From Bacillota bacterium (GTDB taxonomy: Bacteria > Bacillota > Clostridia > Oscillospirales > Oscillospiraceae): a stretch of 64,000 bases of DNA. A program made the translations under genes and the position numbers. Within the stretch, counting starts at the first letter, position 1, and every line of letters begins with the position of its first letter. Under the pieces are notes generated by a model. That model was not told the origin of the DNA and ran no database searches. It worked only from the letters and a program-made list of their open reading frames with translations. Where the stretch lies: NCBI GenBank assembly GCA_030535235.1, contig JAUNCL010000007.1, positions 29,174 through 93,173 on the forward strand, given 5' to 3'. Shown piece by piece: positions 45,808 to 54,157 of the stretch.

Positions 45808-47058
45808 TTATCCCAACACGATCTTCCTGTACTCCTCCACGGACCGGACCTGGCCCACGGCGGAGAGGGAGACCTGGTCCCACCGGAAGATCTCCCGGGC
45901 CAGGTCCATGACGTCCTCCCGGGTGACGGCGTCGTAGGCGGCGATGATCTCCTCGGCGGAGAGGATCTTGTCCATAAACAGCAGGGACCGCCCCGCGTGG
46001 CTCATGAGGGACTGGGTGGACTCCAGGCCCATGACCACGTTGGCCTTGGACTGCTCCCGGGCCCGCTCCAGCTCCTCGTCGATGGGGCCCTCCTCCTTGA
46101 ACTGGGTGATGACCCGGCGGATGGTCTCCAGGGCCTTGGTCTCGGTCTCCCGGTTCAGGGCGGTGTAGACGCAGAAAACCCCGGCGTCCTGGTGTCCGGC
46201 GCCGTAGGAGTAGATGGAGTAGCACAGCCCCTGCTGCTCCCGCACCTGCTGGAACAGCCGGGAGGACACGCCGCCGCCCAGGATGGAGGACAGCAGCTGG
46301 AGGGCGAAGCGCTTGGGGGAGCTGTAGGTCAGGCCGGGGAAGGCCAGGATCAGGTGGTTCTGCTCGATGGGCTTTTTGGTGGCCACGAAGGCGGGGGTGT
46401 ACACCGCCTGATCCACCCCGGGGATCTCCCCGGCCTCCAGGGCGGAGAACCGCCGGCGGATGTCCTCCAGAACCTCCTCCGTAAAGCTGCCGGTGAGGGC
46501 CACCACGGTGTTGTCCGCCCGGTAGTGGCGGCGGTGGTAGTCCCGCAGGGAATCCCCGGTCATCTGAGCCAGGGTGTCCTTGCTGCCCAGAATGGGACGG
46601 GCCAGGGAGCTGCCCCGGAACACCTCGGCGAAGAGCTTTTCGGCGCAGAGGTCATCGGGGGTGTCCTCGTACATGTCGATCTCCTCCAGGATGACCCCCC
46701 GCTCGGTCTCCACCGCCTCCTGGGTGAAGGAGGAGCGGTAGACCATGTCCCAGAGGATATCCAGGGCCTGGGGCAGGTGGTCGTCCAGGACCCGGCCGTA
46801 GAAGCAGGTGCACTCCTTGGTGGTGAAGGCGTTCATCTGGCCACCGATGGCGTCGGTTTCCCGGGCAATGTCGGCAGCGGAGCGGTTCTCGGTCCCCTTG
46901 AAGAGCATGTGCTCGATGAAATGGGCCGCGCCGGACTCCTGGGGGCTTTCCTCCCGGGAGCCGCCCCCCACCCAGATCCCCAGGGCGGCGGACCGGACCG
47001 TATCGATTTTTTCCGTGACAATACGCACCCCGTTGGGGAGGGTTTCCATGTGGACCAT
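45808..47058 (-). CDS. M16 family metallopeptidase (processing-protease-like)
   Basis: A 416-residue zinc protease. The inverted zinc motif HxxEH is at H46-E49-H50 (HFIEHMLFKGT), and the downstream ligand glutamate lies in ERGVILEEID. The C-terminal inactive half is also present. Similar to Bacillus YmxG/MlpA. It starts with AAAGGAG. The MurE-ArgB gene ends 121 bases upstream on the same strand. Cellular substrate unknown; it could be an intracellular peptidase. Confidence 0.92.
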   Translation of the reverse strand: MVHMETLPNGVRIVTEKIDTVRSAALGIWVGGGSREESPQESGAAHFIEHMLFKGTENRSAADIARETDAIGGQMNAFTTKECTCFYGRVLDDHLPQALDILWDMVYRSSFTQEAVETERGVILEEIDMYEDTPDDLCAEKLFAEVFRGSSLARPILGSKDTLAQMTGDSLRDYHRRHYRADNTVVALTGSFTEEVLEDIRRRFSALEAGEIPGVDQAVYTPAFVATKKPIEQNHLILAFPGLTYSSPKRFALQLLSSILGGGVSSRLFQQVREQQGLCYSIYSYGAGHQDAGVFCVYTALNRETETKALETIRRVITQFKEEGPIDEELERAREQSKANVVMGLESTQSLMSHAGRSLLFMDKILSAEEIIAAYDAVTREDVMDLAREIFRWDQVSLSAVGQVRSVEEYRKIVLG

Positions 47059-47179: not shown

Positions 47180-49549
47180 TTACCGCTTCTTCTCCATGGT
47201 GGTGCCCAGGGATTTTTCCGAGATGGCGTCCAGCAGGACGGCGTGCTCCATGCGGCCGTCCAGGACGGTGACCGACCCCACCCCGTGCTCCACGGCGTGG
47301 ATGCAGTTCATGGTCTTGGGGATCATGCCGCCGGCGATGAGGCCGCTGTCGATGAGCTCCTTGGCCCGGGCCACATCCATCCTGGCAATGCGGGTGGACT
47401 GGTTGTGGCTGTCCACCAGGATGCCGTCGGTGTCGGTGAGGAAGACCAGCTTATCGGCCCCCACGGCCTCGGCCACGGCCCGGGCGGCGTCGTCGGCGTT
47501 GCAGTTGAGGGCGGTGCCCTCCTCCCCCCGGGCGATGGGGGAGACCACGGGCAGGTAGCCGGCGTCCAGCAGGGTGGTCAGCAGCCGGGGGTCCACCTTG
47601 GTGATGGTCCCCACCAGGCCCAGCGTTTCGTCCTTTTGCCGGGCGGTGATGAGGCCGCCGTCCCGGCCGGAGACCCCGCAGGCCCTGGCGCCGATGCGGT
47701 CCAGAGCCCCCACGATGGCCTTGTTCACCCGGGCGGACAGGGCCATCTCGGCCCCCTCCAGGGCGGCCTGGTCCGTGACCCGGTAGCCGTTTTCAAACTT
47801 GGTTTCCACGTTCATCCGGTCCAGCAGGGCGGAGATCTCCTTGCCGCCGCCGTGGACCAGAACCACCCGCACGCCCACGGACTGGAGGGCGGCGGCGTCC
47901 TCCAGAATGGTGTCGGTGGAGGCGGCGTCCAGGGCGGAGCCGCCGTACTTGATGACCAGGGTGCGGCCCTCGTAGCGGCGGAGGAGGGGGAGCACGTCCA
48001 GCAGCGCCCGGACCTTGCTCATGCCGTCCATGCCGTGGAGGACGTCGTACTCATGGAGGAACTTTTTGGAATACTCCACGTCGGAGGGGCAGTCGATGTA
48101 TTCAATGCCCCGCTTCTGGCGGGTCTCGGCCCCCTTGCCGGTGAGGATGATGATGGTGGGCTCCTGGCTGCCCAGAACGGCCTGGCGGATGGCCTCGCCC
48201 CGGTCGGGGACGATGGTGTAGTCACAGCCCTCGTTTTCCACATACTGTGCAATATCCCGGCAAATATTCTCCACGGGTTCCTCGCCGGGGTCTTCCTCGG
48301 TTAGAATGACAAGGTCCGAGTATTTGCCCGAAATTTCGCCCAAATCCTTCCGGCGGTCATAGGCCTTGTAGCCGGGGCAGCCGAAGATGGTCACCACCCG
48401 GCGGCCGGGGTACTCCTCCTTGACGGACTGGAACAGGGTCTCAAAGGAGAGCTTGTTGTGGGCGTAGTCCACGATGACCGAGACCTTCTCGTCGGCGTTG
48501 GAGTAGACCTCCATCCGGCCGGGGACCCGGGCCTTCATGAGGCCGGCGAAGGCGTACTGCTCGGGGATGCCCAGGGCCTCGCAGACCGCCAGGGCGGCCA
48601 GGGCGTTCTGGACGTTGAAGAGACCGGGCATGGTCAGGCGGAACTCCCGGCTGTACCGGGGGGTCTTGACCTTGAAGAGGATATCGCCCCCCACCTTGCG
48701 GATCTGGGAGCCGAAGATGGTGGCGGAGGGGTCCTTGGTGGAGAAGGTGATCATCCGGGCGCAGCTCTTCCGGGCGGCCTCCAGGACCCGGTCGGCGTGG
48801 TCGGAGTCCAGGTTTACGCAGGCGGCGGCGGCCTGGGCGAAGATCCGCAGCTTGGAGGAGAAGTAGTCCTCAAAGTCGGGGTGCTCGATGGGGGAGATGT
48901 GGTCGGTGCCGATGTTCAGAAAGACGGCGGCGGCGAACTCCACGTTGACCACCCGGTCGTACTTCAGGGCCTGGCTGGAGACCTCCATGGTCAGGTAGCG
49001 CATGTCGGTGGACACGCCGTTGGCGAAGTGCCGCTCTAAGTCCAGGGGCTCGGGGGTGGTCAGGTGGGACTCGAACCGCTCCACGCCGTCGTAGGTCTCG
49101 ATGCCGCCGACCACCCCGCTGGGCTTCTGCTTCTTGGCGGCCAGATACTCGTCGAAGATATACTTCAGGTAGTAGGTGGTGGAGGACTTGCCCTTGGTGC
49201 CGGTGATGCCCACCACGCTGAGCTTCCCCGAGGGGTGGTTGTAGTAGAAGTCGGCCAGCAGGGCCATGGTCAGGCGGACGTCGGTGACCTGCAGGCAGGG
49301 CAGGTCCACCCCCTCATAGGGCTTTTCCGCAATGTAGGCAAAGGCCCCCTGCTCCATGGCGGAGCGGAGGAACTCGACTTTGAAGTGGGCGCCCTTACAG
49401 AGAAACAGGGTGCCGGGGACCACCTGGCGGGAGTCGCAGCTCACCAGGGCCACCTCCCGGGTGAGAGGCGCACCGGAGAAATTGATCAGCAGGCTGTGCT
49501 TCTGCAGAAGCTGGATGTAATCCCCCAGGGGATAAAGGGTCAGGTTCAT
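47180..49549 (-). CDS. Fused Mur ligase (MurE-like) and N-acetylglutamate-kinase-like (ArgB) protein
   Basis: A 789-residue, single open frame. Residues 1-509 form a full Mur ligase of MurE type: N-domain, P-loop TGTKGKSST (117-125), TTPEPL (164-169), MEVSSQAL and the SSK lysine (K233). Residues 510-789 form a full amino-acid kinase with ArgB motifs: KYGGSALD, VHGGGKEISALL, SGRDGGLITA, LNCNADDAA, LTDTDGIL and GGMIPK. The link between them has no ribosome site before Met510. DNPR, the diaminopimelate signature of MurE, is EDPG here (419-422), and GKGHE is GKGAE (471-475), so the added amino acid is probably not DAP. Downstream of a racemase and ATP-grasp gene. Confidence 0.9.
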   Translation of the reverse strand: MNLTLYPLGDYIQLLQKHSLLINFSGAPLTREVALVSCDSRQVVPGTLFLCKGAHFKVEFLRSAMEQGAFAYIAEKPYEGVDLPCLQVTDVRLTMALLADFYYNHPSGKLSVVGITGTKGKSSTTYYLKYIFDEYLAAKKQKPSGVVGGIETYDGVERFESHLTTPEPLDLERHFANGVSTDMRYLTMEVSSQALKYDRVVNVEFAAAVFLNIGTDHISPIEHPDFEDYFSSKLRIFAQAAAACVNLDSDHADRVLEAARKSCARMITFSTKDPSATIFGSQIRKVGGDILFKVKTPRYSREFRLTMPGLFNVQNALAALAVCEALGIPEQYAFAGLMKARVPGRMEVYSNADEKVSVIVDYAHNKLSFETLFQSVKEEYPGRRVVTIFGCPGYKAYDRRKDLGEISGKYSDLVILTEEDPGEEPVENICRDIAQYVENEGCDYTIVPDRGEAIRQAVLGSQEPTIIILTGKGAETRQKRGIEYIDCPSDVEYSKKFLHEYDVLHGMDGMSKVRALLDVLPLLRRYEGRTLVIKYGGSALDAASTDTILEDAAALQSVGVRVVLVHGGGKEISALLDRMNVETKFENGYRVTDQAALEGAEMALSARVNKAIVGALDRIGARACGVSGRDGGLITARQKDETLGLVGTITKVDPRLLTTLLDAGYLPVVSPIARGEEGTALNCNADDAARAVAEAVGADKLVFLTDTDGILVDSHNQSTRIARMDVARAKELIDSGLIAGGMIPKTMNCIHAVEHGVGSVTVLDGRMEHAVLLDAISEKSLGTTMEKKR

Positions 49550-49582
49550 GGATCATAGTCCTTTCTGTCGTAAGGGTTGCGA

Positions 49583-50293
49583 TCAAATATTCCGCAGCTG
49601 TTTGCCGCAGCGGAGGATGGCCTGCTCGGCCAAAACCTCCATGGCGTCGATATAGTAAGGGGGCAGGCCGTGGAGGGTCCGGTAGACCGACAGCTCCGTG
49701 CAGCCCAGAATGGCGCAGTCGCAGCCCGCCTCCCGCAGGAAGGCGTCGATCCCGGCGAACTTCTCCCGGGAGCCGGTCTCCCCCCGCTTGATCTCGTCGT
49801 AAATGATGGACATCACGGTTTTCTGGATGTCCTCCGGGGGGGTCACTGCCGTGAGGCCGGCCTGTTCCAGCTCCTTCTGGTAGATGCCCGTCCGGATGGT
49901 GCCGTCGGTGGCCAGGATGCCCACGGTCTTCTTCCCGGCGGCCCGGATGGCCTTCACGGTCTCCCGGGGCATGTGGATGAGAGGGATGGACAGCTCAGCC
50001 TGGATGCGGTCGGCGAAAAAGTGGCTGGTGTTGCAGGGGATGGCCAGGTGGGTGCAGCCGGCCTTCTCCAACAATTTTGCGTCGGCCAGGAGATGCTGAA
50101 AGACCTCCTCCTCCCGGCCCCCTAAGATCCCGGCGGTGCGGTCGGGGATCTTGGCGTCGCTCCAGATGAGGACCCGCAGGTGCTCCTGGTCGCTCTCGGC
50201 CTGGGTGCGGTCGATGATCCGCTGATAAAACGTGTTGGTGGCCTGGGGACCCATGCCCCCCAGGACCCCCAGGATGCCTTCTTTGTTTGACAT
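49583..50293 (-). CDS. Aspartate/glutamate racemase family protein
   Basis: A 236-residue cofactor-independent racemase. Both catalytic cysteines are present: the first in AIPCNTSHFF, the second in ILGCTELSV. The GGMGPQATNTFY start is the usual one. It resembles the YgeA/RacX group and not MurI. It would convert L-Asp (or L-Glu) to the D-form in the cytoplasm. Start ATG has GAGGAAAC. The MurE-ArgB gene starts 33 bases after its stop, and the ATP-grasp gene lies upstream after a repeat, so the three likely work as a unit. Confidence 0.9.
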   Translation of the reverse strand: MSNKEGILGVLGGMGPQATNTFYQRIIDRTQAESDQEHLRVLIWSDAKIPDRTAGILGGREEEVFQHLLADAKLLEKAGCTHLAIPCNTSHFFADRIQAELSIPLIHMPRETVKAIRAAGKKTVGILATDGTIRTGIYQKELEQAGLTAVTPPEDIQKTVMSIIYDEIKRGETGSREKFAGIDAFLREAGCDCAILGCTELSVYRTLHGLPPYYIDAMEVLAEQAILRCGKQLRNI

Positions 50294-50329
50294 AGATGTT
50301 TCCTCTATCGAATGGTCTCTGGATGGAAC

Positions 50330-50455
50330 ACCCTCTCAGTCTGCTCCGCAGACAGCTCCCCCTCAAGGGGGGAGACGTTGGGCGCTCCACAAAACTTGGC
50401 TCGCCCCTTGGGGAGAGCTGGCGCCGCCGAAGGCGGTGACTGAGAGGGGGCCGTC
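50330..50455. repeat. Dimeric repeat, outside-in orientation
   Basis: Here the order is reversed compared with the other copies: CCCTCTCAGTC outside left, then GGGGGAG; then TTGGCTCGCCCC inside, and GACTGAGAGGGGG outside right. So the same units occur tail to tail. It lies between the ATP-grasp ligase and racemase genes, within their presumed transcript. Confidence 0.75.
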
Positions 50456-51664
50456 TCAGTTCTTCTTCTCGTAATACTGCTTGAACTTTTTGAAGTGGCC
50501 CAGCAGGTTCTTCTTCATGCGCAGGGTCCGGGCGAAGGCCTTGTCCTTTTCGTAGAACAGGGGGGTGACCTCTCTGCCCTCATCCATCCGGGCCTTCATC
50601 TCCTGGTGGTAGTCGGAGACGATGTAGTCAAAGGCCACCCTCCGGGGGACCACCCGCCACAGGCTGGGGTTGTCCGCCATCACGAAGGGCAGGTCCTTGC
50701 CCTCCACCCGGTCCTCCACCAGCAGCCTGGCGATGTTGTAGCCCGCGCCGGTGACATAGTAGTTGCTGCGGCCCTGGCGGCAGTTGATTTCAAAGGCCTT
50801 GAACTTGCCGTCCCGGGGGTCGTACTTGATGTCGAAGTTGGAGAAGCCCACGTAGTTCAAATCCTCCAGAAAGGCCCGGAACTTCCGGCACAGCGCCTCG
50901 TTGACCTCGGTGAGGATGACCGCGTGGTTGCCGATGCCGTGGGGGGTGTGCTCCTCCAGGAGGACATGGCCCAGGCACATGAGCTTCACCTTGGCGTTCC
51001 GGTCGGAGTAGCAGGTGAGCACCCGCATGTTGCTGTCGTCCCCGGGAATGAAGTCCTGGATGATCATGGTGTCGGGGTATCCGGCGGCGTAGACCTTGTC
51101 CAGAACCTCCTCCAGGTTCTTCCGGTCGGGGCAGGTGAAGACCTTCTCGTTGCCGGGGAAGGGGTGCTCCCAGTAGGCCACCCCGTTGGAGGGCTTGCAG
51201 ATGTAGGGGGGCTGGAAGGGCAGGTCGAAGTCGTGGCCCATCTCCTTCCGGTAGACGAAGGTGCCGGGGTGGTCGATGCCGTGCTTGTCGCACAGCTCGT
51301 AGAACTTCTCCTTGTTGATGAGGGTGTTGATGAGGTCGCCGTCGATGTAGGCGGCCACGCAGTTGGCGGGGAAGGAATCCTTGTTCTCGGCGGCCAGCTT
51401 CACGTAGCTGTCGCCGCAGCCGATGACCAGGACGGTCTTGTCGGCGAACTCCTTGGCCACCTGGGCCACGTTCTGACGGAAGGTCTCGGCGTCCTCGTTC
51501 CGGGCGCAGACCCGGTAGTCGATGATATTCGAGCCATAGGCGGGGCCGGAGGCGAACTTGCCAAAGCAGACCGACTTTACGCCGTAGGCCTCGTGAAAGG
51601 CCCGGGCCACGCTGTATACGTTGATATCCCCGCCGAAGAGCAGGGGCTGGAAGGAATGTTCCAT
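50456..51664 (-). CDS. ATP-grasp ligase (D-aspartate ligase / carboxylate-amine ligase-like)
   Basis: A 402-residue ATP-grasp enzyme. N-terminal FGGDINVYSVARAFHEAYG is the pattern of the family that contains D-aspartate ligases (Asl) that add D-Asp to peptidoglycan side chains. Nucleotide- and metal-binding parts: PPYICKPSNGVAYWE, MIIQDFIPGDDSNMRV and FEINCRQGRSNYYVT. No export signal, so it acts in the cytoplasm on a soluble or membrane precursor. ATG 51664 follows AAGGAAG. It starts a possible operon with the racemase and MurE-ArgB genes. Substrate is inferred by analogy and the racemase nearby. Confidence 0.83.
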   Translation of the reverse strand: MEHSFQPLLFGGDINVYSVARAFHEAYGVKSVCFGKFASGPAYGSNIIDYRVCARNEDAETFRQNVAQVAKEFADKTVLVIGCGDSYVKLAAENKDSFPANCVAAYIDGDLINTLINKEKFYELCDKHGIDHPGTFVYRKEMGHDFDLPFQPPYICKPSNGVAYWEHPFPGNEKVFTCPDRKNLEEVLDKVYAAGYPDTMIIQDFIPGDDSNMRVLTCYSDRNAKVKLMCLGHVLLEEHTPHGIGNHAVILTEVNEALCRKFRAFLEDLNYVGFSNFDIKYDPRDGKFKAFEINCRQGRSNYYVTGAGYNIARLLVEDRVEGKDLPFVMADNPSLWRVVPRRVAFDYIVSDYHQEMKARMDEGREVTPLFYEKDKAFARTLRMKKNLLGHFKKFKQYYEKKN

Positions 51665-51870: not shown

Positions 51871-54105
51871 TTATCCGCTGACCCGGGCCACCTGATAGAT
51901 GCCGTGGATCTGCTGGAGCTTGTTCATGATGGTGGTCACCTCGCTCTGGGTGCGGACCTCCACCACCAGGCTGAGCTTGGCGTAGCCGTCGGGGAGGGCC
52001 TGGGCGTTGAAGGACAGGGTGTTGATCTTGGCGGTGGCCAGGATGGTGGCCACGTCCAGGGCCAGGCCGCTGCGGTCCTTGCCGATGAGCTCGATGGTGG
52101 ATTTATAGGTGTTCAGGCTGCCGGGGTCCCAGCTGACCTTGATCCAGCGGTCCTTCTCGTTCTCCCGGCTCATGCCGTTGACGGCGTTGGGGCAGTCGCA
52201 CCGGTGGACGGACACGCCGAAGCCCCGGGTGATGAAGCCCACGATCTCGTCGCCGGGGACGGGGGTGCAGCACTTGGCGAACTTCACCATGCACTCGGTC
52301 ATGCCGGAGACAATGACGCCGGAGAAGGATTTCTTGCTGTTGCCCTGCTTGGCCACGCCGGAGTCCACGGTGGCCCGGGCGGCCTGGGCGGCCTGCTCCT
52401 GGGCGGCCTTCTCGGCGGCCAGACGCTCGGCCTGCTGGCGGTCCTGGTGGACCAGCTCCTCCCGGGCCCGGTTGGCGCACTTCTGGGCGGAGGCCCCGCC
52501 GTAGCCGATGGCGGCATACATCTCCTCCAGGGAGTTGAAGCGGACCTTTTCCAGGATGTGGGGGAGCATCTCCTCGGAGGTGAGCATCCCGATGGTGATG
52601 CCCAGACGCTTGAGCTCACCCTCAAACATGGCCCGGCCGGTGGCCACGTTCTCCTCCCGCTTCTCCCGCTTGAACCACTGGCGGATCTTGGTGCGGGCCT
52701 GGTTGCTCTTGGCCAGCTTCATCCAGTCCCGGCTGGGGCCCTTGGCGTTCTTGGAGGTGATAACCTCCACGATCTCGCCGGATTTCAGCTGGTAGTCAAA
52801 GCCCACGATGCGGCCGTTGACCTTGGCCCCGGTCATGGAGTTGCCCACCCCGGAGTGGATGGCGTAGGCAAAGTCGATGGGGGTGGCCCCGGCGGGCAGG
52901 TTGATGACGTCGGCGTTGGGGGTGAAGACGAAGACCTCGTCGGCGAAGAGGTCCACCTTCAGGGTGCGGATATACTCCTCCGCGTCGGTGTCCTGCTGGT
53001 TCTCCAGCAGGCGGCGGACCCAGGCGAAGGTCTCCTCGGTGCCCAGCTGCTTGTTGCTCATGCCCTGCTTGTACTTCCAGTGGGCGGCGATGCCGTATTC
53101 CGCCATGTGGTGCATGTCCCAGGTGCGGATCTGGACCTCGAAGGGGATGCCCTCGGTGCCGATGACCGTGGTGTGGAGGGACTGGTACATGTTGGGCTTG
53201 GGGGTGCCGATGTAGTCCTTGAACCGGCCCAGGACGGCCTTGTACATGTCGTGGATACAGCCCAGGACGGAGTAGCAGGTGGGGATATCGTCCACGATGA
53301 CCCGGAAGGCATAGAGGTCGAAGATCTCGCTGAAGGTCTTGTTCTGGGCATACATTTTGCGGTAGATGGAATAGATGTGCTTCACCCGGCCGTAGACGGT
53401 GGCCTTGATGCCCTCCTTCTCCAGGCGGGCGGTGATCTCGGTCTGGATCTTTTCCATGAAGGCGGCGTGGGCCTGGGCCTGGTGGTCCAGCTCGTCGTCG
53501 ATCTCCTTGTAGGCGATGGGGTCCAGGTATTTCAGGGAGAGGTCCTCCATCTCCCACTTCATCCGCTGCATGCCCAGGCGGTGGGCGATGGGGGCGTAGA
53601 CCTCCAGGGTCTCCAGGGATTTCTCCCGGCGCTTCCGCTCGGACTGGAACTCCATGGTGCGGATGTTGTGGACCCGGTCGCAGATCTTGATGAGCATGAC
53701 CCGGACGTCCTTGGCCATGGCCATGAGCATCTTGCGCAGATTTTCCATCTGCTTTTCCTCGATGGAGGTGTACTTCACCTTGTCCAGCTTGGTGACCCCC
53801 TCCACCAGGTCGGCCACCGCCGGGGTGAAGCGCTTGGCCACCTCCTCATAGGTGGCGTCGGTGTCCTCGATGGTGTCGTGGAGCAGGGCGGCCATGATGG
53901 AGTCTGCGTCCAGACCCAGCTCGGCCACCAGATGGGCCACCTCCAGGGGGTGGGTGATATAGGGAGAGCCGTCCTTGCGCAGCTGTCCCTCGTGGTAGGT
54001 CTTGGCATACTGGTAGGCGTCCCGGACCCGTTGCAGGTCCTCCTGGCTCATGCTTTTCAGTTTGTCTTCCAGCTCTTGGAATCGAGCGTCCAATTTGTCC
54101 TCCAT
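51871..54105 (-). CDS. relA: Bifunctional (p)ppGpp synthetase/hydrolase Rel
   Basis: A 744-residue long RSH protein that makes and destroys the alarmone (p)ppGpp in the stringent response. Hydrolase: H76-D77...E80-D81 (HDTIED) intact. Synthetase: RFKDYIGTPKPN at 294-305, with RxKD rather than ExDD, typical of bifunctional Rel. A TGS domain (VFTPNADVINLPAG) and a C-terminal ACT domain follow. Start ATG 54105 has AAAGGAAG; a GTG six codons earlier overlaps that site. It lies 52 bases after recJ, a common Firmicute order (recJ-apt-rel, here without apt). Confidence 0.95.
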   Translation of the reverse strand: MEDKLDARFQELEDKLKSMSQEDLQRVRDAYQYAKTYHEGQLRKDGSPYITHPLEVAHLVAELGLDADSIMAALLHDTIEDTDATYEEVAKRFTPAVADLVEGVTKLDKVKYTSIEEKQMENLRKMLMAMAKDVRVMLIKICDRVHNIRTMEFQSERKRREKSLETLEVYAPIAHRLGMQRMKWEMEDLSLKYLDPIAYKEIDDELDHQAQAHAAFMEKIQTEITARLEKEGIKATVYGRVKHIYSIYRKMYAQNKTFSEIFDLYAFRVIVDDIPTCYSVLGCIHDMYKAVLGRFKDYIGTPKPNMYQSLHTTVIGTEGIPFEVQIRTWDMHHMAEYGIAAHWKYKQGMSNKQLGTEETFAWVRRLLENQQDTDAEEYIRTLKVDLFADEVFVFTPNADVINLPAGATPIDFAYAIHSGVGNSMTGAKVNGRIVGFDYQLKSGEIVEVITSKNAKGPSRDWMKLAKSNQARTKIRQWFKREKREENVATGRAMFEGELKRLGITIGMLTSEEMLPHILEKVRFNSLEEMYAAIGYGGASAQKCANRAREELVHQDRQQAERLAAEKAAQEQAAQAARATVDSGVAKQGNSKKSFSGVIVSGMTECMVKFAKCCTPVPGDEIVGFITRGFGVSVHRCDCPNAVNGMSRENEKDRWIKVSWDPGSLNTYKSTIELIGKDRSGLALDVATILATAKINTLSFNAQALPDGYAKLSLVVEVRTQSEVTTIMNKLQQIHGIYQVARVSG

Positions 54106-54157
54106 ATACCGGCTTCCTTTCACATCACACGGGTGGGTTGTTCTCTTTCTCCTATCG

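Follow-up and report, generated by a model that had tools for sequence, protein, structure and literature searches.

A MurE-ArgB fusion next to aspartate racemase and ATP-grasp ligase genes in Oscillospiraceae, and its possible role in an ornithine-D-aspartate peptidoglycan

The stretch analysed here (64,000 nucleotides of contig JAUNCL010000007.1, assembly GCA_030535235.1; hereafter the window) comes from an Evtepia-like member of the Oscillospiraceae and carries a three-gene cassette at positions 47180 to 51664. The genes are transcribed in the order ATP-grasp ligase, aspartate racemase and a fusion of MurE with ArgB, and Evtepia gabavorous KLE1738 has the same cassette (locus L018). The features are as follows.

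47180..49549, minus strand: MurE-ArgB fusion, 789 residues in a single reading frame with no internal stop
48095..49549, minus strand: MurE part (fusion residues 1-485), by TIGR01085 score and tree a UDP-N-acetylmuramyl (UDP-MurNAc)-L-Ala-D-Glu ligase not of the meso-diaminopimelate (mDAP, DAP) type
48284..48295, minus strand: EDPG (fusion residues 419-422), aligned at the DNPR position of mDAP enzymes
48125..48139, minus strand: GKGAE (fusion residues 471-475), keeping the Glu that other MurEs have in GKGHE
48023..48094, minus strand: MurE/ArgB linker (fusion residues 486-509), with a helix predicted at 490-504 by the structure model
47189..48022, minus strand: ArgB or N-acetylglutamate kinase (NAGK) part (fusion residues 510-787), by TIGR00761, PDB NAGK matches and the model
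49583..50293, minus strand: aspartate racemase, 236 residues with Cys87 and Cys198, by Pfam, TIGR00035 and alignment with 1jfl
50456..51664, minus strand: ATP-grasp ligase, a proposed AslA-type D-aspartate ligase, by fold on the model, linkage and relatives
51871-54123: relA/spoT, transcribed ahead of the cassette
45808-47058: M16 peptidase gene, on the other flank

The gene identities and coordinates had been given in a preliminary description made from the DNA letters alone, and they were borne out by Pfam and NCBIfam scores and, for the ATP-grasp protein, by the fold of its model. Three Pfam families matched the fusion in one frame (Mur_ligase_M, 7.6e-38; Mur_ligase_C, 1.8e-26; AA_kinase, 3.6e-45). 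Among 60 genomes searched, the full-length fusion was found in 14 of the 15 other genomes of the genus and in one genome of another genus (G034); G005, a same-genus genome that is 84% complete, was without it among the matches listed. Considering that the full-length fusion recurs in same-genus genomes and in further genera, an assembly error or a chance fusion was rejected. The linker was similar in 15 relatives. The model of the fusion had a mean predicted local distance difference test (pLDDT) score of 88.7 and a predicted template modelling (pTM) score of 0.64, which implies that both domains fold but that their mutual placement is unsure.

The fusion passed the cut-off of the NCBIfam murE model TIGR01085 (310.5 bits, cut-off 257.3) and scored below that of the Lys-ligase equivalog NF010628 (343.1 bits, cut-off 536). 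According to published work on mDAP enzymes, the Arg of DNPR binds the distal carboxylate of mDAP, the first Asp of the motif and a Glu of another loop bind the side-chain amine, and the Lys-adding MurE of Staphylococcus aureus has DNPA (PMC3829189). The cassette MurE has EDPG, without the mDAP-type Arg, and the housekeeping MurE of the same genome has DNPR. Both acidic amine-binding positions were retained in the cassette MurE pocket, the Glu of GKGAE being taken as the equivalent of Glu468 in Escherichia coli and Glu460 in S. aureus. The cassette enzyme thus resembles the S. aureus MurE in the missing Arg and the conserved acidic positions, and differs from it in the Glu that opens the motif, the fused kinase and the score below the Lys-ligase cut-off. 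In a tree of 76 MurE sequences, 26 of the 27 Arg-bearing rows lay on one side and 44 of the 49 Arg-less rows formed one clade (98/94), which includes the MurEs of the cassettes, those of Lactobacillales and the sole over-cut-off MurE of Lactobacillus johnsonii. The exceptions were the Arg-bearing L083, at the base of the Arg-less side, and the divergent Arg-less L119, L169, L170, L172 and L173, on the Arg side.

The two MurE types occur together. In the window's genome, the second murE (488.7 bits, DNPR) neighbours rsmH, a penicillin-binding protein gene, mraY, ftsW, murG and murA, and a second argB (258.9 bits) stands in the order argG, argH, argC, argJ, argB, argD, argF (neighbour names from reading the proteins). 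Of the 14 other fusion-bearing genomes of the genus, at least 12 also have a separate MurE and at least 13 a separate ArgB. The preliminary description had left room for the fusion merely doing the two housekeeping jobs; with one separate mDAP-type murE and one separate argB in the genome, a housekeeping role was rejected. Thirty genomes, mostly holders of the ATP-grasp gene, were checked for full-length MurEs over the cut-off: two were found in 22, a single one in seven (G005, G063, G074, G075, G079, G080, G081), and in G061 the second was split across two contigs. In every one of the 17 genomes in which both copies were read, one had the Arg and the other did not; these include G041, G045 and G059, whose Arg-less copy has no established cassette context.

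The kinase part scored 239.6 bits against the argB model TIGR00761 (cut-off 151.3), remained under the cut-offs of the LysW kinases (the [LysW]-aminoadipate kinases are relatives in NCBIfam), and aligned over its whole length with the solved NAGKs 2jj4, 2bty and 2buf. Eight catalytic or substrate positions were invariant in all 17 fused and all 26 housekeeping ArgBs. On the model, an N-terminal helix (fusion residues 510-526) is present as in hexameric NAGKs. The fused ArgB shares this helix and the catalytic residues with the hexameric, arginine-sensitive enzymes of Synechococcus (2jj4), Thermotoga maritima (2bty) and Pseudomonas aeruginosa (2buf), but it stands behind a MurE, and the Gly and His of the arginine site are replaced in 17 of 17 fused copies. 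Published work on feedback by arginine names E19, R209, H268 and G287 in Corynebacterium glutamicum numbering (PMC10464499); we mapped these positions onto the fused ArgBs by letter and a 19-residue spacing. The G287 position was Ser (16) or Thr (1) in the 17 fused copies and Gly in all 26 housekeeping copies, and the H268 position was Thr (15) or Val (2) in the fused copies and His in 18 of the 26. These replacements suggest that arginine inhibition has likely been lost in the fused kinase.

The fused ArgBs grouped in a single clade (100/100) that excludes every housekeeping copy and the three references, and these separate clades led us to reject a recent copy of the host argB as their source. 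The ratio of nonsynonymous to synonymous substitution rates (dN/dS) of the kinase part, relative to the window copy, was 0.10-0.34 in 13 of 15 pairs; the distant L078 gave 0.56, L077 was not computable, and five close pairs gave 0.06-0.15. That the fused ArgB is the sole NAGK of G244 was not upheld, the arginine contig of this genome stopping inside argJ, and in G393 and G004, whose assemblies are fragmented, only the fused ArgB was seen.

The racemase matched Pfam Asp_Glu_race (2.3e-44) and passed TIGR00035 (asp_race; 231.3 bits, cut-off 93.1). The two cysteines pointed out in the preliminary description proved to be Cys87 and Cys198, whose counterparts in the solved structure of an aspartate racemase, 1jfl, are cysteines that we take to be the catalytic pair. 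The ATP-grasp protein had no Pfam family match and no match in a sequence search of the PDB; NCBIfam, Pfam and PDB sequence searches returned weak PRK12767 matches alone for it and its relatives. An ATP-grasp fold was confirmed on its model (mean pLDDT 93.8) by structure comparison with VIA-align, and its gene adjoins the aspartate racemase gene in the window and in many relatives. Based on fold, linkage and relatives, we propose that it is an AslA-type D-aspartate ligase. PylC of pyrrolysine synthesis is 14-16% identical to it and differs in substrates and pathway.

According to a review that covers the D-Asp bridge pathway, the ATP-grasp enzyme AslA adds D-Asp to the third residue, racD lies within the aslA operon of Lactococcus lactis, and AsnH amidates the D-Asp (PMC4155827). 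The connection to D-Asp-ligase and racemase wall chemistry suggested earlier agrees with the AslA/RacD/AsnH set described there. Compared with that pathway (L. lactis, lactobacilli, Enterococcus faecium), the cassette has the same adjacent ATP-grasp ligase and Asp racemase, and related clostridial cassettes contain an AsnH-like amidotransferase. The differences are that the host here has a separate mDAP-type MurE, that its cassette MurE is fused to NAGK and has EDPG instead of the lactobacillar DDPG, and that no close AsnH relative was present in its genome (best match 34% over residues 12-177; 12 genomes searched); for this last reason the D-Asp is probably not amidated. The preliminary description had also stated that no described pathway combines these four activities. 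Three of them, the ATP-grasp enzyme, the racemase and the Arg-less MurE, do correspond to the described D-Asp bridge set; what is new is the MurE-NAGK fusion and the presence of two MurE types in one genome. No published mention of a MurE-ArgB fusion, and nothing in print on the wall chemistry of Evtepia or Oscillospiraceae, was found in the literature searched, which excludes most subscription journals. The available part of a 2024 review reports A4-beta walls in gut Eubacterium and gives no wall type for Oscillibacter (PMC11382707).

The cassette also recurs as a unit, since the three genes stayed together across same-genus genomes and the family, as the preliminary description had proposed to check. 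Among 200 genomes sampled from the family, the ATP-grasp gene was found in 48 (30 of 106 genera), and 46 of the 48 neighbourhoods were examined (G241 and G327 excluded). MurE-ArgB was present in 18, of which two have a decayed kinase part and one, G034, has its ATP-grasp gene on another contig; a further 16 had a single MurE, six an asparagine synthase without MurE and three a racemase with no MurE in the stretch read, and three lay at a contig end. MurE-ArgB fusions occurred in 10 genera. No racemase was found at L261, L266, L267, L259 or L264, nor at the contig-cut locus L230.

Based on these comparisons, we hypothesized, at roughly even confidence or a shade above, that the cassette is a D-Asp bridge set of the lactobacillar AslA/RacD kind, whose non-DAP MurE is fused to NAGK and which serves an ornithine-D-Asp wall. 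The racemase would convert L-Asp to D-Asp, and the MurE part would attach to UDP-MurNAc-L-Ala-D-Glu a diamino acid lacking a distal carboxylate, L-ornithine being the most likely. The ArgB part, probably free of arginine inhibition, would drive glutamate carbon to ornithine together with the cell's ArgC, ArgJ and ArgD, so that ornithine would be available to the MurE part even under plentiful arginine. The ATP-grasp ligase would then join the beta-carboxylate of D-Asp to the side-chain amine of ornithine, giving an Orn-D-Asp (A4-beta) bridge with a probably unamidated D-Asp. The MurE of the division cluster would continue to make mDAP precursors, perhaps for the spore cortex; the spore-coat protein SpoIVA was over the cut-off in 52 of the 60 genomes, including the host genome. 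From the sequences we infer that ornithine is the substrate, that feedback has been lost, that the ligated residue is D-Asp and that the two MurEs have separate tasks, and the claim for ornithine is made because of the fused NAGK and not because of the motif Glu. Considering the canonical NAGK and the amine-suited MurE pocket, the activated acidic amino acid on a wall precursor proposed in the preliminary description is less likely than ornithine supply.

Bacillus (Lysinibacillus) sphaericus has a Lys-D-Asp vegetative wall and an mDAP cortex. The host here may similarly be a spore former that reserves mDAP for the cortex and uses a different diamino acid during growth, which would explain its two MurE specificities in the same way; we know of no MurE fusion in B. 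sphaericus. The diamino acid at position 3 determines cross-linking, sensitivity to lysozyme and endolysins, and sensing by host receptors (mDAP by NOD1). If a second, ornithine-D-Asp wall exists, wall types predicted from the division cluster would be wrong for many of these gut bacteria, an amino-acid pathway enzyme would be physically part of a peptidoglycan ligase, and the fusion of MurE with a deregulated NAGK would tie metabolic supply directly to a wall-building enzyme. It is a tentative and rather doubtful extension that a large group of gut Oscillospiraceae with spore genes has two peptidoglycan chemistries, mDAP and ornithine-D-Asp, the latter fed by a ligase-borne, arginine-insensitive kinase.

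Two genomes of one genus, G334 and G394, bear on the function of the kinase. Their kinase part is degenerate, with no Pfam AA_kinase match and the catalytic motifs gone, and MurE is retained; in G246, of the same genus, the kinase is still over the cut-off. Of 26 genomes, G334 and G394 were the only two with ArgC over the family cut-off and the only ones that have, in addition to the decayed ArgB, two separate copies. In G334, a single contig, the second set reads argC-argJ-argB-argD and adjoins an ornithine-racemase-like gene (368 bits, below the 480 cut-off) and an ArcD/NhaC-like antiporter gene (whole region L271, 521-7943), so that a D-ornithine operon is possible; in G394, of the second set, argC and argB matches alone were seen. 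The decay is consistent with a fused kinase whose task is ornithine supply and which can be lost once that supply is rebuilt.

Several observations weigh against the ornithine-D-Asp hypothesis. The link between decay and second set is a single event in one genus. Moreover, the argG-argH-argC-argB-argF cluster of G334 showed no argJ or argD, and since these were seen only in the second operon, the second set may be a replacement and not an extra supply. Glu came first in the motif (EDxG) in all 30 distinct fused MurEs, and in an unfused sister clade of the same family (13 rows, 100/100) the motif starts with Asp. With its extra carbon, the Glu side chain could accommodate an amino acid that is shorter by one carbon; as a mark of ornithine that arose with the fusion it was weakened by the tree. 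Eight unfused MurEs have EDxG as well. Judging from the tree, the Glu seems older than the fusion and gives no clean ornithine signature. For five of the 44 MurEs in the Arg-less clade (L080, L081, L082, L124, L125) no adjacent ATP-grasp gene was observed, the first three being those that count against the hypothesis, and the L262 MurE stands inside the fused clade (95/73) without ArgB. G079, G080 and G081 have the ATP-grasp and racemase genes but a single over-cut-off MurE, of the Arg type, and the MurE read in G073 (L119) shows no recognisable motif. As regards arginine, eight of the 26 housekeeping ArgBs are also without H268; the E19 position of the fused copies is not uniform (Asp 13, Glu 3, Gln 1; Glu in 19 of 26 housekeeping copies); and among the 17 fused copies, 15 have Lys at the K196/R209 position and 13 have Glu at the position labelled E281 of the arginine site. 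Finally, the racemase also passes the cysteate racemase model CuyB, NF052483 (221.1 bits, cut-off 190), although gene context favours Asp over cysteate as the putative substrate.

The best surviving alternative, which we regard as unlikely but serious, keeps the D-Asp cassette and has the MurE add L-lysine (A4-alpha, as in most lactobacilli), with NAGK as an oligomerisation or regulatory module such as a hexamer scaffold or an N-acetylglutamate sensor. The cassette MurE does group with DDPG-type MurEs of Lactobacillales, whose hosts are mostly Lys-type; arginine-sensitive NAGKs are described as hexamers formed through the N-terminal helix, which the fusion model retains. The domain also persists as a decayed non-kinase in G334 and G394, and L262 has none. 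A scaffold would not need the strict conservation of eight catalytic positions across all 17 fused copies checked, nor does it suit kinase-part dN/dS values of 0.06-0.34 in 18 of 19 computable pairs, or decay where a second argC/argB set exists. A product outside the wall (a small peptide, capsule or signalling compound) built on a UDP-MurNAc-like carrier is improbable. It would agree with the mDAP-type MurE kept in the division cluster and with a distant set of ATP-grasp, MurE-like and racemase genes in other Lactobacillales (L168, L170, L171, L172), but the cassette MurE is over the family cut-off and groups with the sole over-cut-off MurE of L. johnsonii, and asparagine synthase, MurT/GatD-like and alanine racemase genes neighbour its relatives. 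It is very improbable that the fused ArgB is simply redundant, having joined MurE by chance and persisted through drift: another argB is in the genome and the domain has decayed in two genomes, but the fusion spans 10 genera, forms one clade apart from the housekeeping copies and has low dN/dS. LysW-bound synthesis in Thermus and archaea is the model for a carrier-bound route, in which MurE attaches L-Glu to UDP-MurNAc-L-Ala-D-Glu, the fused kinase phosphorylates its side chain, and ArgC and ArgD finish ornithine on the precursor; in its favour are the N-acylated glutamate substrates of the kinase family, the fusion of the domains and the relatedness of the [LysW]-aminoadipate kinases, but the two acidic positions of the MurE pocket suit an amine and not a carboxylate and the kinase part is over the ArgB and under the LysW-kinase cut-offs, so we give this route hardly any credence.

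Outside the genus, the set of ATP-grasp, racemase and non-DAP MurE genes recurs in many Clostridia. Scanning with the ATP-grasp protein yielded 50 loci, 10 of which have the three genes in a row without ArgB (L024, L027, L029, L030, L036, L038, L039, L040, L047, L061); several others end too early for their neighbours to be read. An asparagine-synthase-like gene precedes the cassette in L029, L030, L031, L036, L038, L039 and L040, and no racemase was found at the L031 locus. In the Lactobacillales, the order of L. johnsonii, 77 of 148 genomes had an ATP-grasp match, the matches ranging from full-length at 100% identity to distant at about 25%. Among 50 of their loci read, eight showed MurE, ATP-grasp and racemase genes together (L138, L147, L148, L149, L150, L151, L153, L157), always with an Arg-less MurE, and many more showed the ATP-grasp-racemase pair; asparagine synthase adjoins the ATP-grasp gene in L. 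johnsonii and others.

At the locus itself, the ATP-grasp reading frame extends to 51763, and its start was placed at the ATG at 51664, where close homologues begin. The racemase and fusion genes are 33 bases apart, and the 162 bases between the ATP-grasp and racemase genes contain inverted repeats and a repeat element (50423-50448), which has four genome copies at two or fewer mismatches (reversed control, 0).

Further arrangements were seen among the relatives. In L168, L170, L171 and L172, an ATP-grasp protein about 25% identical, a MurE-like protein of about 525 residues missing the usual C-terminal GKGxE, and an Asp racemase are encoded adjacently, possibly as another D-amino-acid ligation system. 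Nesterenkonia (Actinobacteria; L058, L059) has two ATP-grasp relatives (33-35%) close together, with no racemase or MurE found adjacent using the window proteins as queries. In L052 (4910-9191), the ATP-grasp gene lies behind a MurT-like gene and between two GatD-like amidotransferase genes, the first assigned by eye, which reads as another link to amidation of wall precursors. An alanine-racemase-like gene stands directly upstream of the cassette in L250, L252 and L256 of one genus (confirmed for L250 and L256). In G142, drawn from the Lactobacillales search, L175 (3218-8166) has ATP-grasp, racemase and MurE genes whose products are 52, 46 and 43% identical to those of the window, followed by a second ATP-grasp paralogue.

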